A DNA stretch of 42,878 nt, from NCBI GenBank assembly GCA_036504215.1, contig DASXVO010000060.1, positions 1 to 42,878 of the forward strand, in the 5' to 3' direction. Positions 29,988-42,878 of this stretch are shown piece after piece. Origin of the DNA: Vicinamibacterales bacterium (GTDB taxonomy: Bacteria > Acidobacteriota > Vicinamibacteria > Vicinamibacterales > Fen-181). The notes below the pieces were generated by a model. The model was not told the origin of the DNA. It ran no database searches and saw only the letters and a program-made list of their open reading frames with translations. How positions within the stretch are numbered: the stretch's first letter is position 1; every line of letters begins with the position of its first letter. A program made the translations under genes and the position numbers.

Positions 29988-30063
<76 letters not shown>

Positions 30064-30323: not shown

Positions 30324-30351
30324 GTAGGTTCGAGTCCTACCTGAGGAGCCA
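30324..30351 (+). repeat. attachment-site repeat (copy 2), tRNA-Asn 3' fragment
   Basis: This is an exact 28-bp copy of the tRNA-Asn 3' end, in direct orientation 289 bp downstream. The flanks differ on both sides. It is not a tRNA gene because the 5' half is absent. It marks a junction of an integrated element; from here rightward the base composition and codon use change. Confidence 0.8.
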
Positions 30352-30693
30352 CCTTCCATCCCGTAATATTCCTAGCGTTTCGCTCGATTCCAGCGTCCCG
30401 GCCTTGCCGCAATTACCCACAACCGGAGGGTCGGAACTTGCCGTTTGGGTTCTTCTTGGGTCTTTCCGGGACCAGAACCGAGGAACCGGGACGTACTATG
30501 CGCCGCCGGAACGGGAGTAGCGGAACGCCCAACGTCGGGGCCGAGCCTGCCCCTGCTGTTTGACGCCCCGAGATGGACGCCAGGGCCGATTCGACCGGTG
30601 CGGATACGCCTTCAAGCTGCAGCACTCCATTGATGGGTTAGAATGCCTCGCGTTTGATTGCTTCCCGACAAACCTCATCGGTTCGGACGGAAA
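30352..30693 (+). promoter_or_regulatory. leader region of the DISARM-like operon
   Basis: This is 342 bp without a supported gene. A TAGAAT hexamer at 30639-30644 is a reasonable -10 and would give a leader of about 43 nt to the ATG at 30694, but no matching -35 is seen at 16-18 bp. The rest contains short GC-rich inverted stretches and no recognisable operator or regulator gene. Confidence 0.3.
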
Positions 30694-32954
30694 ATGACGA
30701 TCTCGGAGACCGACGCCGCTTCCAGATCGCGCACGCTTGAAGCGCAGCTGCTGCCCGTTCACGCGGAGCTGGAGCCGATGCTGACCGGGACGCGAGCCGC
30801 CTTGGAAGGCGGACGGCTTGTGGTCATCGTCGGGTCCTGGCAAACAACACGCGCTGGGGTACTTCTCCCTTTTCACATCTACTTGGGTTGTGCCGGTCTA
30901 CACCACCTATTGCCCCTTCATCCTCAGGTGGGCGTTGTCTGCTTTCGCCCCACCGACCTTAGGATTCTAGATCTTCCGCTCTACAACACGACCGCCACGC
31001 TCGATGTGCGGCGATCGGAGCGAGTTCGACGGGCAAGCCTCGCGCCGCGGAGTGCAGAGGTGCTGACGCCATCCGATTGGGAACAAGGGCTGAACAGGCG
31101 CCCCGGACGTTTTCGCGATCTCGCACTACCGGCTTCATCATTTGTGCAGGTTTCTTCGTGGACCGGCGCTTCATTCGGCCGGCGGCGCCGTCCGGTCTTC
31201 GGCAGGATAGCGCGGAGTGGACCTGAACCGTCCTGTCTGGTCCACGCTAGAGGCGAGATTACCCGGGAGGAGGAGGTAGAACTTTCAACAGTGGATTTCC
31301 TTCTGGTCGATATTCAGGGCTTGCGTGGTTCATCTCGGTTCGAAGCGGTTGCTCGCTTGTTAAACCGGCGTTCAACGGAGCGCCCGACGGTTTTGATGGC
31401 ATCTGGACCGTGTGACTTGGTTTCCCTTGCCGAGGGCGGCACTTTGGACCAGGCACTATTCTGCCAAGTCGGACGTCCGCTGTCACCGATAGCCACGGAA
31501 ATCCGCTTGGTGGGCAGAGACAGGCTTGAAGCAGAGCGCAAGTTCGAATTCGCGTTCGGCGGTCTCAAAGACGGCGATCCGACAGATGTCAAATTGCTTT
31601 CCCTGGCGAAATCAGCATGGTGGGCGTGCCGCCAGAGGTTTGCGGGAGCGGAACAGGAGAACGAACTGCGGAAGTTCGACGCTGCGTTCGTCGGACTCGA
31701 ATCGGAGAATCCCACGAAGGCGAACATGCTGCGGTTGGGCAAAGAACTACTCGACCGTCATGCCAGAGACGAACAGCTCGAGACAGAGCGCAGAGGCCAG
31801 GTCATCGAGGCGACTGTCTCTGCCCACGGTGCGAGTGGAGTTCTGGTCCTTACTCGAAACTGGCAGCAGCCGACATCTTTCGCGCCGAACTGGAGAAGAT
31901 CGGATGGAGCGCCGAGGACCTTCAGACTCTGGGCGTAAGCATCCGTCCTCCGACATCGAGCCGCGAGGAAGGCATCGACAGTGTCGTGACGACGGGCTTC
32001 TTCGGACCAGCAACGCTAGACAACGCCCTTGGTACGAGGGCCCGGAATCTCTGCTTCATTGTCGATCCTCTCGAAGCGAGGGCGATCTGGTTTGGACTTC
32101 GAAGACTCATCTCAATTCTCGACCGTATTGGAGCATCCGATAGCCAGCCAGTTCTCCGAACGGTGCAGGAAGCAATAGAACGCTACGTTCCCGCATTCGC
32201 GACCGACGTTACGATCGACTGGCGATTCGAATCAGCCGCTGCCGCTTCAGGATTCGTCAACCACCTGACGGACGCCGTCGAGAGCGGTTTCGTCGCCATC
32301 CTTCTGAGCGATGGGACACGACTAGACGTCCACGAGAACGCTCGCTTTGAGGTCCTCAATGCATCGGCGCGGAGGCTGAAGACCGTCTCAGCAAGAGAAC
32401 TGAATCGCGGGGACGAGATAATCATCCTCGCTGATTCGCACGCGCTCTTTTCGGACCGCCTCCTGAACGTCCTCGACACGGGGCAGCTTGCCGCTGCTGC
32501 CGAAGCCCGTCGAACTTGGCTCGAAGTCGTCAGGGCTGTGTTCGACGCGCGGCGCCGGCGCGTCGCCGACATCGCGCGCACTATGCAGGAAGACGGTTTC
32601 GAGGTGAAAGCCTTCAACGTCCGCTCGTGGCTGAGGCGCGATCCCCAGAACACCCTAGTTCCTGACAGACTCGACAAGTTCCTCTCGTTCGCGAGAGCAC
32701 TCGGCGTTTCGTTGCCGGAAGAGGTTCTCCCCCAACTTTACGCGGAGATTTTGCGCCTCCGTCACGCTCACCGACGGTGTGGGCGCTATCTGGCTAGGGC
32801 TATCCGCGGGGCGTACTCCGGGCGCTTGGATGCTCCCACTTTGGCGAGGATTGAGCGGGACTGGGGAATGTCATGCCGCCAATTGATGGAAGCTGCCGAA
32901 CAAGTAACGGTAGAGGACGTTTTGAAGTCAGGACCTGCTGATGTCACTCACTGA
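30694..32954 (+). pseudogene. drmE: drmE-position gene of a DISARM-like system, split by a frameshift
   Basis: The first part reads from the ATG at 30694 (MTISETDAASRSRT) and ends out of frame at 31938. The second part continues in the -1 frame to 32954 but has no usable start of its own before residues that look real. Joining them near 31858 gives a continuous product of about 753 residues, reading GVLVLTR then KLAAADIFRAELEKIGW. One extra A in the run GAAAC (31857-31860) would restore the frame. Visible features are a strand-rich ATPase-like start (GRLVVIVGSW), a Walker-B-like LLVDIQG, two imperfect 44-residue repeats (about 282-325 and 326-369, each opening RKF) and FIVDPLEARAIWFGLRRL in the second part. 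It precedes drmA with a 14-bp overlap, the position and size of drmE in class 2 DISARM; the name rests on that and not on a recognised domain. It may be a true mutation, a sequencing error or recoding. Confidence 0.65.
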
Positions 32955-35900
32955 CTCGGACTACAACACCTTCGCGAGCACGCTTGCAAATCGCATCTCC
33001 AACCGACTTCGAGGGCTCGACACCAGCGCTGCGAGGATCGTCAGCAACCGTCCTCAGGACCACGTCCTATCTGGATTCCTCACCCCTACTGGGCGCCCTC
33101 CCGCGACGGGGGAGACGCCTGAAGAGGTTCTGGCGGACGACCTACCTCGCGACAGCCCATACCAGCAAACGAACATCGGAGCGGAGTGGCTTGCTCCTGA
33201 CAACGAGGCGTCAGGAGAACTCCTTGTCAGCGTGGCGGGTACCGTGTACGTCCGCCGTGTGCCGACATTTGAGGAGCAGAACGAGAGGGGTGTCTGGCGA
33301 ACGGTTGTTGATCCAGTGCTTGGCCCCCGGCGTCTGACGGAGCTCGTGCCGGTCTGGACACGAGAATCGATTGGTCCTATAGAGAAGACAGTGCCGCTTC
33401 GGGAACTGGTGACGAAGGGACGCGCGCAGCTCGACCTGTCACCGGACCTTCAGCCGTTCCTCGACCTCATTGCGTTGTCGGGGCTCTTTTCTGGACGCCG
33501 ACCGATTCGACTGCAACCGGAGCAAGTAGCAAGCGCGGACGCTTACACGCAGTTTCTTGCTCCTCAGAATGCGGACCGGATCGCACTCGCGTGGCGGCTG
33601 ATGCTTGACGTTCGGCGGCTCCCATACCCCGCCCAGTCCGGGCTCGTACGTATCGCCGCGCGCATAGTGAATCAAACCGATGCGGTTCCAGGCGCCTCGT
33701 TGGACTATGTGGATCCAAATGTCTACGCGATCGCCTTTAGCGTGCGCATCCCACGTGCGGCTCATCGACCGACGTTGTTCCAGGAGCTTCCCGCAAGCTT
33801 CCGTTTCAATCGGGAAATGCCGGGGGTAGGCATTAACGGTCAAATCGACGCGAATGCCGCCGCGGATACGCTCACGTTGTCCGTGGAGACCGTTCCCATC
33901 AAGAGTGTGCCTCGACTCGAACCAAGAGAGATAGAGGGTGCCGAGCCGACGTTCAATTCCCTTGCCGAAGACGCTCCCGCGGTGCTCAGACAAATCCGAG
34001 ACGAGATGTTGCGTTACGACCGACAGTCCTGGGCGACGAAGATTGCTCTACTGACAGGGCAAGAGCAAAGAGAGGCGGGCGAAGCGCGAGACCAATTCGC
34101 AAGGGAAGTCGAGAGGTTCAGTGCGGGGATAGCGCTCCTGGAAGACACCTCCTATCCACTGGTGCGGCGGGCATTTGAGTTAATGAACCTGGCAATGGAT
34201 GCAGCCTCCAGGAAATTCACAGCCTGGCGGTTGTTTCAGATCGTGTTCATCGTCTCACAACTGTCCGAGCTCGCAGCCCGCGAGTACCCGGAACTCGCTA
34301 CGACCGATGACGGCAGCGTGGAGGTGCTCTGGTTTGCTGCAGGCGGCGGGAAAACGGAAGCCTTCCTTGGTCTCATTTTGTGGCAAGCGTTCTTCGACCG
34401 CCTCCGCGGGAAACGCCTCGGTGTGACGGCATTCGTCAGATTCCCTCTGCGCCTCCTGACATTCCAGCAACTTCAACGCCTAAGCCGGTCACTGGCGAGT
34501 GCGGAGATCATCCGCGCCCGGGAAGGACTGGCTGGTGAGCGGTTCTCGATCGGTTACTTTGTCGGCAACAGCGTCACGCCAAATTCAATTTCTGACGACG
34601 ATCATCGGCGCTTTCAATCGCAGGGGATAGATGCGAGGTTGCAACGCCTCTTTGCTTGCCCCTTTTGCTCAGCGAAGGTCAAAGTCCGGTATGAACCCTC
34701 CTTGCGGTTGATAGAGCATCGCTGTACGTCCCCGGATTGTCCGGGTGGCGCGGAGCGCCTCCCCGTCTACGTCGTCGACGCCGATCTCTACAGCCAGTTG
34801 CCGACGGTCATTGTGTCCACCGTGGATAAGCTCGCACAATTCGGGCAAAACCAGCGGTTCGCGAACCTGTTCGGGCGGATTGACGCGGTGTGCGGTTCGC
34901 ACGGGGCAACATTTCGCGGCACCAATCGCCTGTGTGAAGCCGCCCGGCAGATCGCAGCGGGAGCCCGTCCGGAGAATTGCGGGCAATCGGAAGTGGACTA
35001 TGGTCCATTCCACGATCCGGCACCCGCACTCCTTGTGCAGGACGAACTACACCTCCTGAGTGAAGAACTTGGGACATTTGACGCGCACTACGAGACTGCA
35101 GTCATGCGGCTTTCGCAGAGTCTGGGGGCAAAGCCGTGGAAGATCATCACGGCAACCGCGACGATCGAAGAATACAGGCAGCATGCGTGGCATCTCTATC
35201 TGAAGAAGGCGCGGCAGTTTCCAGGTCCCGGCCCCGAGGCGTACGATTCCTTCTACTACAGACAGAACCAGTCACGACTGGGGCGGATCTTCATCGGCGT
35301 CCTCGGCGTAGGACGCAAGCACACGCCGGCTGTCACGAAGGCTCTTACAACTGTTTACCTCGAGCTCCAGGCTGCGCGCGACCTGGCAGCGGTTGATCTG
35401 GCTCGGGCTACGACGACCTATACCGGACGGGAGATGTCGGAACAAGAATTCCGGACATTGGTCTTCCTCTACGAGATGGCACTGACATACGTCCTGACGA
35501 GAAAAGGTTCCGACCAGGTGGCAGAAGCCATCGAGTCCAGGGTGAAGAAGGAGATACAGGAAACTGCCCCTCGCCACGGCGAGCTGAAGACGGACATGTT
35601 CAACGGCGGTGTGGACGTGGCTGAGATGATTGCCGTGATGGAAGCAATTGCCAATGGAACTGGCGAGAACGATCCAGCAGAGCGCGTACGGGGACTCGTC
35701 ACCACAAACATCATTGGGCATGGTGTTGACGTCGATCGATTCAACGTCATACTCTTTGCTGGCTTCACGCGCTTGGTGGCCGAGTACATCCAGGCTTCTG
35801 CCCGTGTCGGGCGTACGTATCCCGGCTTGTCTCTCCTGGTCGTCACTCCTCAGAGTGAACGGGACAGGAGCATCTTTGACCGATTTAGCAAGTTCCACGA

Positions 35901-36348
35901 ATACCTCGATCGTCTGGTAGATCCCTCACCCGTAAACCGGTGGCCAGAACCGGCACTCTTTCGGACCGTTCCTGGCGTTCTCTGTGGCTATTTGATGGGC
36001 GTCGCGGCGGCGATGGTTGGGGCACAGATGCCCACGGTAGAGAGCGTTCAAGATCGTATAGGGCAAAGGGGAGCCGAGGCACTGAACGAGGACGCGGTCG
36101 TAGAGTGGATGCTTCGAGCCTATGGTGCGGACTTAGCACCGACCCGTCAGTACGGAGATCGCGTTTCCATTCGTTCGAAGAACGCGTTTAGCGCGGTGGT
36201 CAACACGCCGCGAACCGCGGGGCGACCGCAACCTCTCAATACGTACCTCAAGGCGATGCGCAGTCTGCGTGACGTTGACGATCCTGCCTCTGTTAACGTG
36301 AGCGATGACGAGGACGTTAGGATTCTGCGGGTGCTCATGAATGGCTAG
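32941..36348 (+). CDS. drmA: DISARM helicase DrmA
   Basis: This 1135-residue SF2-type helicase has Walker A GGGKTEAF (K471), a DExH box DELHLL (D701-E702), motif III TATAT, and motif VI QASARVGRTYPG (Q951, R955, R958). A C4 zinc site is inserted between motifs I and II (C573, C576, C595, C600). The N-terminal 400 residues form a separate, less charged domain. This is the architecture of DrmA, the core DISARM helicase, which with DrmB binds and acts on invading DNA. Its ATG lies inside the end of the preceding gene and its stop overlaps drmB by 8 bp, so the set is translationally coupled. Codon use is less GC-biased than in the chromosomal part. Confidence 0.88.
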   Translation: MSLTDSDYNTFASTLANRISNRLRGLDTSAARIVSNRPQDHVLSGFLTPTGRPPATGETPEEVLADDLPRDSPYQQTNIGAEWLAPDNEASGELLVSVAGTVYVRRVPTFEEQNERGVWRTVVDPVLGPRRLTELVPVWTRESIGPIEKTVPLRELVTKGRAQLDLSPDLQPFLDLIALSGLFSGRRPIRLQPEQVASADAYTQFLAPQNADRIALAWRLMLDVRRLPYPAQSGLVRIAARIVNQTDAVPGASLDYVDPNVYAIAFSVRIPRAAHRPTLFQELPASFRFNREMPGVGINGQIDANAAADTLTLSVETVPIKSVPRLEPREIEGAEPTFNSLAEDAPAVLRQIRDEMLRYDRQSWATKIALLTGQEQREAGEARDQFAREVERFSAGIALLEDTSYPLVRRAFELMNLAMDAASRKFTAWRLFQIVFIVSQLSELAAREYPELATTDDGSVEVLWFAAGGGKTEAFLGLILWQAFFDRLRGKRLGVTAFVRFPLRLLTFQQLQRLSRSLASAEIIRAREGLAGERFSIGYFVGNSVTPNSISDDDHRRFQSQGIDARLQRLFACPFCSAKVKVRYEPSLRLIEHRCTSPDCPGGAERLPVYVVDADLYSQLPTVIVSTVDKLAQFGQNQRFANLFGRIDAVCGSHGATFRGTNRLCEAARQIAAGARPENCGQSEVDYGPFHDPAPALLVQDELHLLSEELGTFDAHYETAVMRLSQSLGAKPWKIITATATIEEYRQHAWHLYLKKARQFPGPGPEAYDSFYYRQNQSRLGRIFIGVLGVGRKHTPAVTKALTTVYLELQAARDLAAVDLARATTTYTGREMSEQEFRTLVFLYEMALTYVLTRKGSDQVAEAIESRVKKEIQETAPRHGELKTDMFNGGVDVAEMIAVMEAIANGTGENDPAERVRGLVTTNIIGHGVDVDRFNVILFAGFTRLVAEYIQASARVGRTYPGLSLLVVTPQSERDRSIFDRFSKFHEYLDRLVDPSPVNRWPEPALFRTVPGVLCGYLMGVAAAMVGAQMPTVESVQDRIGQRGAEALNEDAVVEWMLRAYGADLAPTRQYGDRVSIRSKNAFSAVVNTPRTAGRPQPLNTYLKAMRSLRDVDDPASVNVSDDEDVRILRVLMNG

Positions 36349-38395
36349 ACCAAGAAACACCGCAACCTCGGGAAATCGCGGCGAGGAGAGTCGGCAGCCC
36401 TCGATTCCTCCCATGCAACGGGGCGTCTCGCAACTGCTGTTCAATTATCTTCCCGGAAGGACCGTCGACTGGGAGGACGGGCTAGCAATTGTGCAACTAG
36501 GAGAGGTCCGGCTTTCAACCGGATGGGAACCAGACAGAATGGGCGCGGTTCTCTCCGAAGTATCGACCCTTCTCGACCGATGGCGATCGCGAGGCGGAAC
36601 GGTCGATCGGCGGTTTCCGCCTCCCGGAGAAGCGGCGCGCTTCACAATCGGTGCTCCTGAGGCGATAGACGCCCACGTTCTTCGAACCGTACTTCTGTGC
36701 GGTGCGTGCTCGCGCTTGGTCTTCGTCAAACCTAGTTCGTTTAGAGGTGAGAACGGGCGTCGCTGTCCGTCGTGCAACGCATTGCGACTTAGGCAATTAC
36801 CCCAGGTATTTGTCCACGGCTGCGGGGAACTAGTCCCCGTAGACGAATGGCTGCCCGCGACGAAGAAGAACCCAGACGGGTCCATCGAGGCGGTAAAGCG
36901 TCCTCTTCGGTGCCCTCGCTGCGGCACGGACGGGCAGCTATTCCTTCCGTCGCGGTCGGAACGTGTAAAGGACATGACCGTCGTCTGCCGGCGATGCAAT
37001 ACGGTCGTTGTTGAACGATTCACGGCACGGTGTCACCGATGTCTGAAGAACATCCTTAGGACAGGTCGTGACGTCGGAAGCGAGCCCGAAGCAGCAGGAG
37101 CAGGCGAGAAGGCAGACACACTGGTGACACGGATCGCCATGCGCATGACCCGGTACAGCGCCAGCGACTCGTATTATGCCCAATCGCTCACGGTGCTCCG
37201 CCTGGACCGACCCGCGGTCACAACCGAGCGCGATCAAGAGGTCGAGACGCTCGCTCAGATACTGCCGCCCAACCGGCGTCCCTCGGCTGCGGTAGGAGGG
37301 AGCGAGGGTCTGATGTCCCTCGTCAGGCGACTTCGAGACGCAGAAGTGGCTGGCGATACAGAGCGCACCGCACAGATCAGAAGGCTCATTGCGGAGGCGG
37401 CGCTAGGGAATCAGACCCCAACGCGACCTGTCGCGAGCGCTTCGGCTTCATGGACCGTCGCTGACCCGGACATTGAACGAGGCATTTCAGAAAGCCTTGC
37501 CTTTCGTCAAAACGTGACCTCGCGCCTGGCAAGGACCGTTGCGTCTGAGGCGGGCGGCGCCGGTGCCGCGCTGCTCGCGGACACTGACGAGCTGTGCCGA
37601 CGACTGGGGATAGCAGAGGTTCGGTTGGTTGAGGACTTACCGGTCATTACAGCGACGTTCGGGTACACCAGGCGGTCATTCGAACCAACGTACGAGGAGC
37701 TGGGCTCAAAAGAACTGCCCACCGAGCTTAGACCGTTCCCATCGCTTGATGAGCGAGCGGCGCGGCGAATTCTACTGCCAGAGGCGACTGGAACGGTGCC
37801 GATTCTGGCACGAGAGTCAGAACACGAAGGCGTGTTCTTGTCTCTCGATCATGACCGCGTCATCAAATGGCTGGCCGCGAACGGCGTGAACCTCGGTGCC
37901 GAGGAAGGGACACCGCCGATCGCAAGAGTCCTTCGGGCTTTGGAACCCGTCGATCGCTACTCCGACCGGATTTGGGACTGCCCGACTCGTCGATTTGTCT
38001 TCGGCGTGGTCCATACGCTGTCTCACGTGGCAATGCGGGCGGCGAGCCGGTTTGCGGGAGTTGAGCGGACGTCGATTAGCGAGTACATCTTCCTACCCTT
38101 GATGGGCACGGTCATCTTCGACAACTCCAGCACCTTCCGGCTAGGCGGAATGGAGAGCATGGTAAAGTACCAGCTCCCCGCCTTCCTCTCCTGTCTTTCA
38201 AGAGAGGCTCTCGACTGCCTCTACGATCCCGACTGTCTTGATCACAGAGGCGCCTGTCACGGCTGCATTCACTCCCCGGAAATCTCCTGTCGCGTCTTCA
38301 ACCACGGCTTGTCGAGGTCGTTCCTGTTCGGAGGTCACGCGCCCTGGGCAGACGTCGCGTCCGACCAACGGATTGTTGGCTACTGGCAGGTATGA
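36341..38395 (+). CDS. drmB: DISARM protein DrmB (DUF1998)
   Basis: The 684-residue protein has many metal-binding Cys pairs: C120/C123 with C142/C145, C191/C194, C216/C219, C231/C234, and a C-terminal DUF1998-type cluster (C618, C626, C632, C639, C642, C650, ending with HGLSRSFLFGG). The DUF1998 domain, together with the DrmA-type partner immediately upstream, identifies DrmB, which forms a complex with DrmA. The ATG is at 36341, inside drmA; the stop forms an ATGA overlap with drmC. No helicase motifs are present, as expected. Confidence 0.87.
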   Translation: MARPRNTATSGNRGEESRQPSIPPMQRGVSQLLFNYLPGRTVDWEDGLAIVQLGEVRLSTGWEPDRMGAVLSEVSTLLDRWRSRGGTVDRRFPPPGEAARFTIGAPEAIDAHVLRTVLLCGACSRLVFVKPSSFRGENGRRCPSCNALRLRQLPQVFVHGCGELVPVDEWLPATKKNPDGSIEAVKRPLRCPRCGTDGQLFLPSRSERVKDMTVVCRRCNTVVVERFTARCHRCLKNILRTGRDVGSEPEAAGAGEKADTLVTRIAMRMTRYSASDSYYAQSLTVLRLDRPAVTTERDQEVETLAQILPPNRRPSAAVGGSEGLMSLVRRLRDAEVAGDTERTAQIRRLIAEAALGNQTPTRPVASASASWTVADPDIERGISESLAFRQNVTSRLARTVASEAGGAGAALLADTDELCRRLGIAEVRLVEDLPVITATFGYTRRSFEPTYEELGSKELPTELRPFPSLDERAARRILLPEATGTVPILARESEHEGVFLSLDHDRVIKWLAANGVNLGAEEGTPPIARVLRALEPVDRYSDRIWDCPTRRFVFGVVHTLSHVAMRAASRFAGVERTSISEYIFLPLMGTVIFDNSSTFRLGGMESMVKYQLPAFLSCLSREALDCLYDPDCLDHRGACHGCIHSPEISCRVFNHGLSRSFLFGGHAPWADVASDQRIVGYWQV

Positions 38396-39237
38396 GCATG
38401 GAGAGATCCGCCTACGTCGCAGCCGCGCGAGTGGTCCCTTGGTTGGTGGCAGACATCGAGGCGTCACTGGGGCGCTGCAGTGACGGCGATCTGATCGACG
38501 AGCGGTTTTTGCAGGATTCCGCCTCGACCAGACTGCCGTCTGACGAACAAGTCGCTCTAGTGACACGAGGGCTGAAGGCGGTCGGCGTATTGCGTGAGTC
38601 AACACGGGGCGTCGAGTTCCAGAAGACCGGAATGCAGGACACCGCCGGGTATCGCCAGGGAGTTCGTGACACCGTAGCGGCTGGCGAGCGTGAACGGTCT
38701 TGCCGCGACGACATCTCACTGTGTGCCGCCGTTCCCAATCGGGCGCCCGACAACATTAGGGAATGCGCGACGATCGAGGCGTCAGACCTTAGATCCGGCA
38801 TCGTGGGCTTGATCTCTGCTACTAACAGGCGGCTGGTCTTGGCGTCGCCGTTCTGGGACGCAGACACAGCGGCGGACATTGCGGACATCGTAAGACGACG
38901 AATTGAGTGCGGTGTAACGGTTGATGTGCTTTCCCGGGGAGACAGCAGTAACGGTGTCTATAGACTCCGGAAAGCAATTGGCAACACATCCGCGCTCCGC
39001 ATCTTCAGGTGGTACGAGAATCAGGGCGCCGGACAAGGTGTAACGACCTTCCATTTCAAGGCAGTTGTCGCCGACGACGGACACCGCGCGTACTTGGGTA
39101 GCGCCAATCTGACTCGCGGTGGCTTGCGCGCCACGATGGAGTTAGGACTCATCGTCAAGGGTGACATCGGACGCAGAGTTGCACGAATTGTCGATAGCGT
39201 GCTCGCTGCGTCCGAGCGCTATGAGCCAAACGAGTGA
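38392..39237 (+). CDS. drmC: DISARM phospholipase D-like protein DrmC
   Basis: This 281-residue protein has one complete HKD motif: H221, K223 and D228 in FHFKAVVADDG, followed by GSANLT. The first half (residues 1-130) is a helical domain with no recognised motif. PLD-family nucleases act as dimers of single-HKD subunits or as two-HKD monomers, so this one would need to dimerise. It occupies the drmC place, coupled by ATGA overlaps to drmB upstream and to the methyltransferase downstream. In characterised DISARM, DrmC is reported to be less essential than DrmA and DrmB. Confidence 0.87.
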   Translation: MSMERSAYVAAARVVPWLVADIEASLGRCSDGDLIDERFLQDSASTRLPSDEQVALVTRGLKAVGVLRESTRGVEFQKTGMQDTAGYRQGVRDTVAAGERERSCRDDISLCAAVPNRAPDNIRECATIEASDLRSGIVGLISATNRRLVLASPFWDADTAADIADIVRRRIECGVTVDVLSRGDSSNGVYRLRKAIGNTSALRIFRWYENQGAGQGVTTFHFKAVVADDGHRAYLGSANLTRGGLRATMELGLIVKGDIGRRVARIVDSVLAASERYEPNE

Positions 39238-40787
39238 TGATGCTTCCGGTTCAACGAAAGGAAAGGGACGCGCCTCCGTCCTGCAAGGTGTACACGCCGC
39301 GTCCACTCGCTGACGCGATTGTGCGTGCGCTGGGCGACACACCGAGCGACGAATGGCTCGAGCCCAGCGTCGGCGGATGCGTATTCCTGCAGTCGCTAGC
39401 GGCATTCGGCGTTCCGCGCGCCAGAATTCGCGCGTTGGATCTTGATCCGCTCCGTCACGGTTTCGATCGCTTGGCGCGCACTCTGCGTGGGCGCGACTTT
39501 CTCGAGTGGAGCTGTTCGACGGTAGAGCGCTTCTCGAAGGTGCTCGCAAATCCGCCGTACATTGCGCTCAATCGGGTAGACGCGGATGTGCGAAAGGCAG
39601 CACTGAAGATTCAGTTACCGTCTGGAAGCAAGGTTCCGCTGCGGGCGAATTGTTGGCTAGCCTTTCTGAGTGCCAGCACAAATCTCCTTCGTCCGTCCGG
39701 CAGCCTGGGCTTCGTACTGCCAGCCGCTTGGTTGTATGCGGACTACGCCGCCTCCTTGCGACAGGAGATCGCCACTTTGTTTGCGGACGTCGAGGTGCAC
39801 CACAGCCGCAGACCCCTGTTTTCGTCCGTGCAAGAAGGGTCCGTGGTGCTTCTGGCGAGAGGTCTGCGGGCGAATGCATCTCCTGTCGCTGGGCACTTCC
39901 GCCAGTGCCACTACGAGACGAGTGAGGAACTGATCCGTGGACTCGAACGCAGTGGCGAACGCACGGTGCGACCATCGGGAGCGGAAGCGGAGGCTATGGC
40001 ACCTGCCGAGAACGCACGTGCGAAGCAGGAACTGCGAGTTCTAGGTCTGACTAAGGTAGTGGACGACCGGGCAGAGCGGGTCCGGGACGTGATGACGATC
40101 CGGCTCGGGGCAGTGACGGGTGATGCTTCGTACTTCTTGTTGACCGAGAACGAGCGAGAGGCAAGGGAGATTCCCAAGGGAGCTCTTGTGCCTGTCGTCT
40201 GCCGAGCGCACCACCTAACGAGCGGCAAGGTGAGCGAAGAGGACTGGAACCTGTTGCGGGACGCCGGCGAAAAGGCCTGGTTGTTTCGTCCGACGACGAG
40301 CGATAGTCACCTACCGGCGGTTAAGGCGTATCTGGGTTTGCGCCGGAACAACGGCGGATGCAACAGGAGTGCGTACAAGGTCCGATCTAGAGAACCTTGG
40401 TACCAGACGCCCATGCCAGATGTGGTAGACGCGTTCATTAGCGGGATGTCCAGCTGGGGACCGTGGCTGGTGTTTCGTGAGATGCCGGGGCTCTCCGCCA
40501 CGAATACTCTGTACGTCGTGCGCTTCGCTGGGGCATTCTCAATGGACGAAAGAGCGGCGTGGGCAATGTGGCTTTTGACGACCGATGCACGCAGGCTGCT
40601 GGCCGAGCGTGGCAGGCGCTACGCAGACGGTTTGGTGAAGTTCGAACCGGGCGATGTCGCTAACATGCCGATCCGCAGGCCGTCTCAGACTCATGGCGCC
40701 TACGCGGCCTACCAGCGCGCCGTTCGACTCCTGACGGCCGGAGAGGGACTCCGTTCGCAGGCGATAGCCGACGAGTGGTTTTGCTGA
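39234..40787 (+). CDS. N6-adenine-type DNA methyltransferase of the DISARM-like operon
   Basis: The 517-residue protein has the SAM-binding motif I EPSVGGCVF (residues 42-50), an acidic motif II in IRALDLDPL and catalytic motif IV NPPY (N106 to Y109), which marks amino-methyltransferases, usually N6-adenine of the gamma (TaqI/Eco57I-like) class. The C-terminal part (about 330-500) resembles a TaqI-like specificity domain, with NTLYVVRF and YADGLVKFEPGDVANMPI. No nuclease motif is seen. It starts in an ATGA overlap with drmC. In class 2 DISARM this position is held by the cytosine-5 enzyme DrmMII; the conserved Pro-Cys motif of such enzymes is absent here. It probably marks self DNA against the system. 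Confidence 0.82.
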   Translation: MMMLPVQRKERDAPPSCKVYTPRPLADAIVRALGDTPSDEWLEPSVGGCVFLQSLAAFGVPRARIRALDLDPLRHGFDRLARTLRGRDFLEWSCSTVERFSKVLANPPYIALNRVDADVRKAALKIQLPSGSKVPLRANCWLAFLSASTNLLRPSGSLGFVLPAAWLYADYAASLRQEIATLFADVEVHHSRRPLFSSVQEGSVVLLARGLRANASPVAGHFRQCHYETSEELIRGLERSGERTVRPSGAEAEAMAPAENARAKQELRVLGLTKVVDDRAERVRDVMTIRLGAVTGDASYFLLTENEREAREIPKGALVPVVCRAHHLTSGKVSEEDWNLLRDAGEKAWLFRPTTSDSHLPAVKAYLGLRRNNGGCNRSAYKVRSREPWYQTPMPDVVDAFISGMSSWGPWLVFREMPGLSATNTLYVVRFAGAFSMDERAAWAMWLLTTDARRLLAERGRRYADGLVKFEPGDVANMPIRRPSQTHGAYAAYQRAVRLLTAGEGLRSQAIADEWFC

Positions 40788-40849
40788 GCGTTACATAAGG
40801 TAGTGACTTCAACAGATCCGCTTGCTGTCATAAGGCCACACTGGCGCTG

Positions 40850-40869
40850 ACCCGCTGTAGTCGGCGGGT
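40850..40869 (+). terminator. hairpin after the methyltransferase gene
   Basis: ACCCGC and GCGGGT pair around an 8-nt loop, about 63 bp past the methyltransferase stop, in the 117-bp gap before the next gene. No T tract follows. It may end the DISARM-like transcript or separate the last gene from it. Confidence 0.3.
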
Positions 40870-40904
40870 GAGCAGCTCCGTCAACCCGTTTGTCTCGGAT
40901 TGAC

Positions 40905-41579
40905 ATGACCAGCAAAGACCCGCTTCTGACGCGCTTTGCCGCCGAGCATTCAATCGATGTGCGCAGTCTGCCGGACGCCGAACGGGACGAATTACATTGG
41001 GTGCGGCGATGTGCCGAAGCAGTCGATAGAGGCTACGCCGCTCTCTCCGAACAGACTATTGTCTCGGACCCGGCGGTAGGGGTGCTGTGGCATCTTCTCG
41101 CTCGGTGCCAAGAAATGGCGGAAGGCGCTATTGTGACTTTCGCGGCGGCGTCGGGTGCGGCAGCAGAGGTGCTGTCTCGCGCGGTTGTCGAGAGAGCCTT
41201 GGCGATTCAGTTCATTATCATGAGCCCTCGGGCGCGGCTAGCAGCGTATCTGCGCCACCACGTTGACGATGTCGATCGTCAGATAGCGCAGTGGAGGACT
41301 CTAGCGTCGTCGCTGCCAGACGAGGAGCGGCGCGTACACGTCGAGGCGTGCAACTACCGGGCAGTGGCGAATCGAACCATGCGTTCGCTTGTGGACCGCC
41401 TTGAGAATGAATTGGTTGGGAAGAATCGTCGTGAGAAGTGGCCTTCGCGTATTGCCGAACGATTCGAAGGGCTGCACGACCGCGTCATGTATCGAACGAT
41501 GTACGCTCGGCTTTGCTCCGAGACGCACTTCGACGCTGAAGAGACGCTTCGCTACATCGTTGGCAAGTTGGAGGGTTAA
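40905..41579 (+). CDS. DUF5677-like helical protein
   Basis: This 224-residue protein is mostly helical. A central EVLSRAVVERALAIQFIIMS segment and the late YRTMYARLCSETHFDA resemble the DUF5677 family (conserved R/E helix and a Ser/His pair near the end). No enzyme motif is evident. The frame is open from a TTG at 40890, but the ATG at 40905 is a better start. It lies 117 bp after the methyltransferase and 2 bp before the IS3 element, so it may be an accessory gene of the defence operon or an independent passenger. The C-terminus (IVGKLEG) ends immediately before the IS, so loss of a few terminal codons cannot be excluded. Confidence 0.65.
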   Translation: MTSKDPLLTRFAAEHSIDVRSLPDAERDELHWVRRCAEAVDRGYAALSEQTIVSDPAVGVLWHLLARCQEMAEGAIVTFAAASGAAAEVLSRAVVERALAIQFIIMSPRARLAAYLRHHVDDVDRQIAQWRTLASSLPDEERRVHVEACNYRAVANRTMRSLVDRLENELVGKNRREKWPSRIAERFEGLHDRVMYRTMYARLCSETHFDAEETLRYIVGKLEG

Positions 41580-41580
41580 G

Positions 41581-41600
41581 GTGGACCCCAAAGTCTAGAC
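41581..41600 (+). repeat. left inverted repeat of the IS3 element
   Basis: GTGGACCCCAAAGTCTAGAC pairs with the right terminal repeat at 42855-42874 with four mismatches. A short AAGATCTTAACTT-like sequence also recurs inside both ends (left GTTAAGATCTT at 41620-41630, right GATCTTAACTT at 42835-42845). Confidence 0.75.
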
Positions 41601-41688
41601 AAAGATCTGGGCCGAGATAGTTAAGATCTTGCCGTCCCTTAACAGGCGCGGAGGCCTCGCCAGAGGCCGCAGCGCCCCTCCGTGAACG

Positions 41689-42545
41689 TCAGGCAACCTT
41701 CGCCCCGGCGTACACCACCGCTGGCGTCCGGTAGGCGAGCGACTGGTGGGGGCGTTCGTCGTTATAGAACCGAAAGTAACGCCCCAGCTGGCGTCGCGCC
41801 TCAGGCACCGACCCGTAGTCCTTCAGGTACACTTCTTCGTACTTCACCGAGCGCCACAGCCGCTCGACGAAGACGTTGTCGAGCGCGCGGCCGCGACCGT
41901 CCATGCTGACCCGCGCCCCGGCGGCTTCGATCCGTGTGGTGAACCCCGTCGCCGTGAATTGCGCGCCCTGGTCCGTGTTGAAGATCTCCGGCCGGCCCCG
42001 TGCGAGCGCCTCGTCGAGGGCGTCCAGGCAGAACTGGCCATCAATCGTCACCGACAGGTCCCACGCCAGCACGCACCGGCTGAACCAGTCGAGAATCGCG
42101 ACCAGGAACACGAAGCCGTGCCGCAACCGCACGTACGTAATGTCGGTGCTCCACACCTGGTCGACGCGCGTGATCGGCACGTCGCGCAACAGGTACGGGT
42201 AGACCTTGTGCCCCGGATGGGGCTCACTGAGGCGCGGTTTCGGCCCGACCGCCTCCAACCCCAGCGCCCGCATCAAGCGCTGCACGTGCTTTCGATTCAC
42301 GGCATGCCCCACGCGCTGCTGCAACGCCACCTGCATCCGCCGCGAGCCGTAGAACGGCGTCGCGGTGTACTGCTCGTCCAGCAGGCGCATCAACAGCAGG
42401 TCCGCCTCGCTCACCGCCACCGGCTGGTAGTAGAACGAGGACCGCGGCAGCTCCAGCAAGGCACACTGCTGCGCGACGCTCAGTCTCGGATGCTTCGGGT
42501 CGACGACGGCGCGTCGGTCAGCGGTCGACCAGGTCGTGTATTTTC
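41689..42545 (-). CDS. IS3 transposase OrfB (DDE domain, expressed by frameshift)
   Basis: This is the catalytic part of the IS3-type transposase, with an rve-type DDE triad D(STDITY), D(NTDQGAQF) and E(VERLWRS) and exactly 35 residues between the second Asp and the Glu. The N-terminal part carries the HTH_21-like block [13 protein letters not shown]. No ATG precedes the conserved start: the frame is open back into orfA (reading [18 protein letters not shown]), so it is made as an OrfAB fusion by -1 frameshifting, probably at the A-rich codons AAG AAA ATA (42539-42547). The upstream limit given is the frameshift region. All catalytic residues are intact. Confidence 0.85.
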
Positions 42546-42817
42546 TTCAACCAGTCCAGCTCCACCTTGAGCTGGCCAATCTCCTGATACAGGGCCGCCT
42601 TCAGCGCCTCGTGGTCCTCCACCTCGGTGTCGCGCCGCGTCGCGAACACCTCAGGCAGCGCGGCCACCGCCTGCTTCTTCCACTTGGCGATCTGAATCGG
42701 ATGCACCTCGAACGTCGACGCCAACTCGCTCAACGTCCGGTCCCCGCGCAACGCCGCCACCGCCACTTTCGCCTTGAACTCCGCACTGTGCAGTCGTCGT
42801 TTGGCCATCGTCGGCAC
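42518..42817 (-). CDS. IS3 transposase OrfA (HTH)
   Basis: This 99-residue protein starts [20 protein letters not shown] and has a helix-turn-helix of the HTH_Tnp_1 type ([20 protein letters not shown]) and a leucine-rich C-terminal helix ([17 protein letters not shown]). It binds the IS ends and is the N-terminal half of the OrfAB transposase. Its 3' end overlaps orfB in the -1 frame. Confidence 0.88.
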
Positions 42818-42854
42818 TCCCTCTTCCGGGCCGACGATCTTAACTTACGCGGCT

Positions 42855-42874
42855 GTCCAGTTTTCGGGGTCCAC
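42855..42874 (-). repeat. right inverted repeat of the IS3 element
   Basis: Read inward it is GTGGACCCCGAAAACTGGAC. Four bases (TATA) remain outside it before the window ends, too few to judge the chromosome beyond. Confidence 0.75.
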
Positions 42875-42878
42875 TATA

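Follow-up and report, generated by a model that had tools for sequence, protein, structure and literature searches.

A predicted DISARM operon combining DrmE with an adenine-type methyltransferase on a genomic island of a Vicinamibacterales bacterium

The window analyzed here is the whole 42,878-nt stretch of contig DASXVO010000060.1 from a Vicinamibacterales bacterium (assembly GCA_036504215.1). Listing of open reading frames (ORFs) revealed drmE, drmA, drmB, drmC and a methyltransferase (MTase) gene in a close-packed row on the plus strand at 30694-40787. Judged from its predicted proteins, this operon is a DISARM system, marked by DrmA, DrmB, DrmC and DrmE. We consider it likely that it is an anti-phage operon of the DrmE lineage that uses an adenine-type MTase in place of the cytosine-5 methylase DrmMII. 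The genes are as follows, and successive genes overlap by 14, 8, 4 and 4 bp.

30694..31938, plus strand: drmE N-terminal ORF, coding to about 31858 by codon usage; when compared with relatives, it corresponds to the RecA1-like part of a degenerate helicase fold
31617..32954, plus strand: drmE C-terminal ORF in a shifted frame, coding from about 31858; carries the DrmE_C domain
32941..36348, plus strand: drmA, superfamily 2 (SF2)/YprA-type helicase with an inserted C4 zinc site (PADLOC DrmA 3.7e-118; PDB 7s9v DrmA 1.3e-58)
36341..38395, plus strand: drmB, multi-Cys partner of DrmA, a separate gene (PADLOC DrmB 1.1e-29; NCBIfam DrmB_fam 3.5e-19, under cut-off)
38392..39237, plus strand: drmC, phospholipase D (PLD)-type nuclease (PADLOC DrmC 2.3e-12; NCBIfam DrmC_I 7.4e-15, under cut-off; PLDc_2)
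39234..40787, plus strand: N6-adenine-type MTase of the Eco57I/TaqI kind (Pfam Eco57I 5.2e-8; PDB M.TaqI 4.2e-9; PDLC03267 1.8e-50)

An initial annotation had read this region as a DISARM-like operon of five overlapping plus-strand genes. The ORFs and the PADLOC, Pfam and NCBIfam profiles confirmed the gene order and the families, but the gene in the drmE position is two ORFs, and the frame break between them had been missed. The profile search that it called for found DrmA, DrmB, DrmC and DrmE_C, no DrmMI or DrmMII, and DrmD only under its cut-off. NCBIfam concurs on DrmA, DrmB, DrmC and DrmE, and every match falls under its own family cut-off (for DrmA, DrmAS at 3.2e-110 and 369.8 bits against a cut-off of 950). 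Therefore, the four window proteins are diverged members of their families. The SF2 helicase with an inserted C4 zinc site was correctly recognized, as shown by the DrmA profiles and by the zinc-site motif CPFC...C..C, which stands beside Walker A GGGK and DELH; the solved DrmA structure 7s9v is its sole PDB match. The supposed DUF1998 multi-Cys protein is indeed a multi-Cys DrmB by PADLOC and NCBIfam, but Pfam gave no DUF1998 match. The single-HKD PLD gene holds as drmC by DrmC profiles and one HKD motif, HFKAVVAD, and the NPPY methyltransferase is of the adenine type by its Eco57I domain, its NPPY motif at residue 106 and its match to M.TaqI. The ORFs of drmA, drmB, drmC and the MTase are intact and retain their catalytic motifs.

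YprA-type helicases are common to ARMADA, BRIGADE, TALON and Dpd (PMC12458937), and the operon might belong to one of these systems rather than to DISARM. We regard this as highly improbable. DISARM is marked by separate drmA and drmB genes, a PLD gene of the DrmC type and DrmE_C, all found here, the DrmA profiles are ahead of DpdF by about 100 orders of magnitude, and there is no BrxHII/SNF2 or PglX gene in the operon. Neither a helicase fused to OB-CON-DUF1998 nor BrxHII/PglX or class-specific genes of these systems were found in it. Thus, the initial annotation's caveat that the helicase/DUF1998 pair might fall to another system is not supported, since the DrmA profiles lead.

According to the PADLOC rules (PMC9252829), type I has drmD and drmMI without drmE, and type II has drmE and drmMII. 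By these published rules the window operon is, on its gene content, neither class 1 nor class 2, because it has no DrmD, no DrmMI and no DrmMII. The best DrmD match in the genome reached 364 bits, against 610 needed, and lies on other contigs, with none in the operon. Thus, the earlier remark that no SNF2 gene (drmD) is present stands: none is in the operon and nothing in the genome is over the cut-off. Cytosine-5 methylase (PF00145) gave no match in the whole genome, while 10 of 14 control genomes were positive. A cytosine-5 methylase and drmD beside the operon, which would have spoken against the initial annotation, were not found. Class 1 has a long DrmA with an N-terminal EVE-like domain (PMC12458937). 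The window DrmA is 1135 aa long, and the profile scores are 370 bits for DrmAS and 237 bits for DrmAL.

We surveyed 87 loci, 80 from genome contigs with a DrmA alignment as the query and 7 from plasmids. ORFs were predicted and classed with profiles built in this analysis, and the set is biased to relatives of the window DrmA, so that fractions are not frequencies in nature. A DrmE-like gene adjoins drmA/drmB in 44 loci. Counting MTases in or beside the operon, these 44 loci have an N6-type (24), an N6/N4-type (1; L080, PF01555), a cytosine-5 (6) or no visible MTase (13). Our DrmE profile is backed by Pfam DrmE_C in 22 of 40 members and by NCBIfam DrmE in 21 of 40. The window order, drmE-drmA-drmB-drmC-MTase, recurs in L063 and L072. 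The combination of DrmE with an adenine-type MTase thus appears recurrent and widespread, and the set is apparently unnamed. The initial annotation had proposed a "mixed or third form". The operon indeed fits neither published class; it is not an odd hybrid, however, as most DrmE-positive loci with an MTase carry an amino-methylating (adenine-type) one. This suggests a DISARM variant with DrmE, an adenine-type methylase and a swappable methylase position, and that the two-class scheme is too narrow.

The survey also revealed other arrangements. A GNAT-like/ABC-type ATPase fusion lies directly upstream of drmE in L040 (4884-6752), L041 (745-2997), L042 (4945-6858) and L073 (4575-6671). These loci come from different phyla and have no visible MTase, and the fusion may be an unlisted component of DISARM. 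Pairs of drmA and drmB that resemble DISARM but have no DrmE, with a cytosine-5 methylase nearby, occur in L027, L048, L064, L071, L089 and others; their upstream gene encodes about 350-550 aa and is annotated as a sigma-70 factor in L027. In Halorubrum (L083, 2030-9589), two drmE-like genes flank a gene for an 810-aa protein without a Pfam match, all upstream of drmA.

In an 84-protein DrmA tree, the window protein is sister to an 18-locus clade (98 SH-aLRT), and a careful 35-protein tree again joined it with that clade (support 99/96). DrmE and an N6-type MTase are present in all 17 clade members whose contig covers the region; the contig of the eighteenth, L062, begins at drmA. The clade's DrmE is more diverged and weakly linked: four clade proteins were matched by a profile built without them, and neither of the two tested with PADLOC DrmE models was matched. 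The clade's MTases belong to PDLC03338 (6 of 6 tested) and are mostly encoded upstream of drmE, whereas the window MTase belongs to PDLC03267 and stands at the operon end.

Where did the MTase come from? Among its PADLOC matches listed, DrmMI and DrmMII are absent, and generic MTase_II models lead, PDLC03267 first. Without a DrmMI match, it is not the class 1 methylase moved over. The closest MTases in 396 genomes of the phylum show 53, 43 and 42% identity over nearly the full length. Each of the three stands last in a four-gene operon, after genes for an ATPase with GHKL domains at both ends, a protein that by eye is receiver-like and a third protein of about 260 aa; no DISARM gene is present. 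A tree that included MTases from DISARM loci joined the window enzyme to stand-alone restriction-modification (R-M) enzymes with support 100/100. The initial annotation had suggested a methyltransferase tree; here the Eco57I/TaqI type is given by the Eco57I domain and the M.TaqI match, and the nearest kin lie outside DISARM. Because its nearest kin end paraMORC-like operons without DISARM genes and because of this tree placement, the MTase seems to have been acquired from a different sort of operon, of another R-M type. ParaMORC/HEF_HK elements have been linked to R-M genes (PMC8011034, PMC2292703). The restriction partners of stand-alone plasmid MTases, sought for a clue to the target motif, had no Pfam family, and therefore no motif could be predicted. 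L146 (7773-13644), L147 (3683-9335) and L148 (4475-10056) are paraMORC/HEF_HK-like four-gene operons with an N6-type, not a cytosine-5, methylase.

The same relatives, in paraMORC-like operons, and the family difference between PDLC03267 and PDLC03338 would also fit an ordinary class 2 DISARM that lost or replaced its cytosine methylase and now adjoins an unrelated R-M or orphan MTase gene without a part in the system. We think this unlikely. The MTase gene begins within the last 4 bp of drmC, no restriction enzyme follows (the neighbors are drmC and a DUF5677 gene, and no cognate endonuclease of a type II R-M system stands beside the MTase), and the genome has no cytosine-5 methylase gene to fall back on. 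Furthermore, an adenine-type MTase occupies the same position in L063 and L072, and in the sister clade such a gene directly precedes drmE.

DrmE_C (PF24957) matched the window above the Pfam cut-off (E 6.9e-9) and is confined to ORF 31617-32954. The same ORF was matched by NF038316 (NCBIfam DrmE; E 3.5e-10, 38.8 bits against a cut-off of 80) and by our own DrmE profile (E 1.6e-26), and PADLOC DrmE models left the window DrmE unmatched. The window N-terminal ORF folded alone gave no usable model (pLDDT 36), and by eye its strand pattern matches A5. We therefore turn to a representative relative, the DrmE of L042, rather than the window protein: its AlphaFold model (24 aligned sequences) reached pLDDT 79, and structure comparison with VIA-align gave SF2/SNF2 helicase matches (Z about 13) over about residues 14-510, the part to which the statement on the fold applies. 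GK[ST] occurs within the first 330 residues in only 4 of 45 DrmE proteins, whereas G.GK[ST] occurs in 82 of 82 DrmA proteins. Because of the SF2/SNF2-like fold and the rarity of GK[ST], we infer that DrmE is helicase-like and mostly without ATPase activity. It is perhaps a scaffold that occupies the place of DrmD, the active SNF2 helicase of class 1. The role of DrmE was left open in the Serratia work (PMC9142583), and the helicase-like fold provides an initial structural hypothesis for this protein.

The operon lies, by sequence comparison, on an island at a tRNA-Asn gene that near relatives lack at this site. Other features of this region are:

29988..30062, plus strand: tRNA-Asn(gtt), integration site (ARAGORN)
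30324..30351, plus strand: copy of the tRNA-Asn 3' end, attachment-site-like direct repeat (identical over 28 bp to the end of the tRNA gene)
40890..41579, plus strand: DUF5677 gene that starts about 100 bp after the MTase gene and may be an accessory gene or cargo of the island (PF18928 3e-10)
41689..42459, minus strand: IS3-type transposase near the contig end (Pfam rve, rve_3, HTH_21)

There are three copies of the tRNA-Asn 3' end: one within the gene itself, one 290 bp farther downstream and one at 3415-3441 of contig C78 (L126), which marks the island end. C78:1-141 is identical to the last 141 bases of the window, and beyond its repeat C78 shows 89% identity over 2 kb to the sequence after tRNA-Asn in a same-family genome with an empty site (G334, L129). 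The C78 repeat and the match to this relative therefore place the right end, and the island would be about 16 kb long (30352-42878 plus C78:142-3414). The part of the island that lies in the window has a GC content of 60.6%, compared with 67.5% for the backbone. No integrase was seen in the window part or among the listed ORFs of the C78 part, and the genome contains just one full copy of the IS3 transposase. None of the genomes searched from the same order and class (162 and 193) had the window DrmA at E 1e-60 or better, and no DrmA was found in phage records. Separately, 30352-30487 shows 84% identity to the sequence after tRNA-Asn in a same-genus genome (L127, 1760-1896), perhaps a left end that a family of elements using this site has in common. 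Just outside the right end, in conserved backbone, an AbiEi-type regulator precedes its likely partner gene (type IV toxin-antitoxin; L126, 3674-6171).

Several observations weigh against an adenine-marking system of the DrmE lineage. When trained on the remaining four genes of the operon, a codon-usage model preferred frame 1 over most of the stretch to about 31858 and then frame 3 to near the end; a one-base frame change near 31858 thus splits drmE as assembled, at about the start of the second RecA-like domain in the DrmE alignment (by eye). In addition, the N-terminal ORF showed no homology to DrmE N-terminal profiles (hmmsearch --max, hhalign). The window DrmA branch is long (1.0-1.2). 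The window DrmE_C scores 88 bits to DrmE outside the sister clade and 17 bits to the clade's own. Because DrmE_C is nearer to proteins outside the clade and the MTase is of another family, the operon is, by these comparisons, a mosaic around a conserved core, and therefore it is DrmA alone that places it in one lineage. Finally, the MTase might be an orphan that protects something else.

The frame break, the IS3 element within the island and the lack of a visible integrase would all fit a decaying, non-functional operon, with drmE a pseudogene and the island a remnant. We give this a minor, though appreciable, chance. Against decay, the other four genes of the operon are intact, and both drmE pieces have island-like codon usage and no other stop; the GC content at third codon positions is 63-66% in both pieces, 65-67% in drmA, drmB and drmC, and 89% in recR of the backbone. 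The break may be a real mutation, and this copy of the operon may then be inactive, or it may be a single-base assembly error. Programmed -1 frameshifting is not favored, as no canonical slippery heptamer was seen by eye at the switch.

If the adenine-marking DISARM reading is right, the operon would have arrived with the island inserted at tRNA-Asn, and its MTase would have been taken up from another type of R-M operon. In Serratia DISARM, DrmAB binds DNA with 5' overhangs, unmethylated DNA stimulates its ATPase, the activity is lower on methylated DNA, and DrmC is not essential (PMC9142583). By analogy with that study, we infer adenine as the modified base, the MTase as the source of the self mark and DrmAB as restrained by it. 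The MTase would recognize a specific motif in the host's DNA and methylate adenine there. The helicase complex of DrmA and DrmB would load where incoming DNA offers free single-stranded 5' ends, modified DNA would hold the complex back, and DrmC and host nucleases would then assist in destroying the DNA. DrmE, SF2-helicase-like and in its relatives mostly without the ATP-binding lysine, might serve as a scaffold or as a subunit that binds DNA.

The methylase and the presence of drmD or drmE decide how a DISARM system is classed, and detection tools follow the same rule (PMC9252829). Our survey suggests that this rule fails in a large share of the loci with DrmE, so that tools would miss or mislabel them. 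A contact of DrmA V1296 with the DNA base has been proposed as the methylation sensor, and 5-methylcytosine was tested (PMC9142583). Should DrmE systems function with either an adenine or a cytosine mark, the sensor in DrmAB cannot be tied to a single modified base; together with the V1296 proposal, this poses a direct biochemical question. More broadly, and with slightly less than even confidence, there may be a third, widespread DrmE-type DISARM class, or several, with an adenine self mark, a plug-in methylase exchanged with other defense operons, a DrmAB that reads a mark other than 5-methylcytosine, and DrmE as an inactive helicase in the place of DrmD. The mixed composition is real and recurrent, pointing to methylase exchange, and the system is recognizably DISARM even if this copy may be broken.

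The prototype of DISARM class 2 (type II) is reportedly that from Bacillus paralicheniformis (Ofir et al. 2018). Class 2 and the window operon have in common the order drmE-drmA-drmB-drmC, a terminal MTase and the lack of drmD; the MTase is the cytosine-5 DrmMII in class 2, whereas the window has an Eco57I/TaqI adenine-type MTase and a broken drmE frame. With class 1 from Serratia sp. (PMC9142583), the window shares DrmA, DrmB, DrmC and an adenine methyltransferase in the system. It differs in that it has no DrmD, its MTase is outside the DrmMI family by PADLOC, and its DrmA fits DrmAS better than DrmAL; furthermore, the Serratia operon has an adenine and a cytosine methylase (PMC9142583), whereas the window shows the adenine type only. 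The two-component-like R-M operons of the paraMORC/HEF_HK kind (PMC8011034, PMC2292703) have the MTases most like that of the window, at 42-53% identity over the full length, but there the MTase is preceded by the double-GHKL ATPase, receiver-like and ~260 aa genes, and DISARM genes are absent nearby. Finally, in the unnamed DISARM loci with DrmE and an N6-type MTase (such as L025 on the Polaromonas plasmid pPNAP03, L063 of Salinarimonas rosea, L057 and L068), the MTases belong to PDLC03338 and mostly lie upstream of drmE, and DrmE is more diverged, unseen by PADLOC, Pfam and NCBIfam in tested cases. Like the window, they carry no 5-methylcytosine MTase or DrmD alongside. These loci share DrmE, DrmA, DrmB, DrmC and an adenine-type MTase with the window operon, and the window DrmA is their sister.

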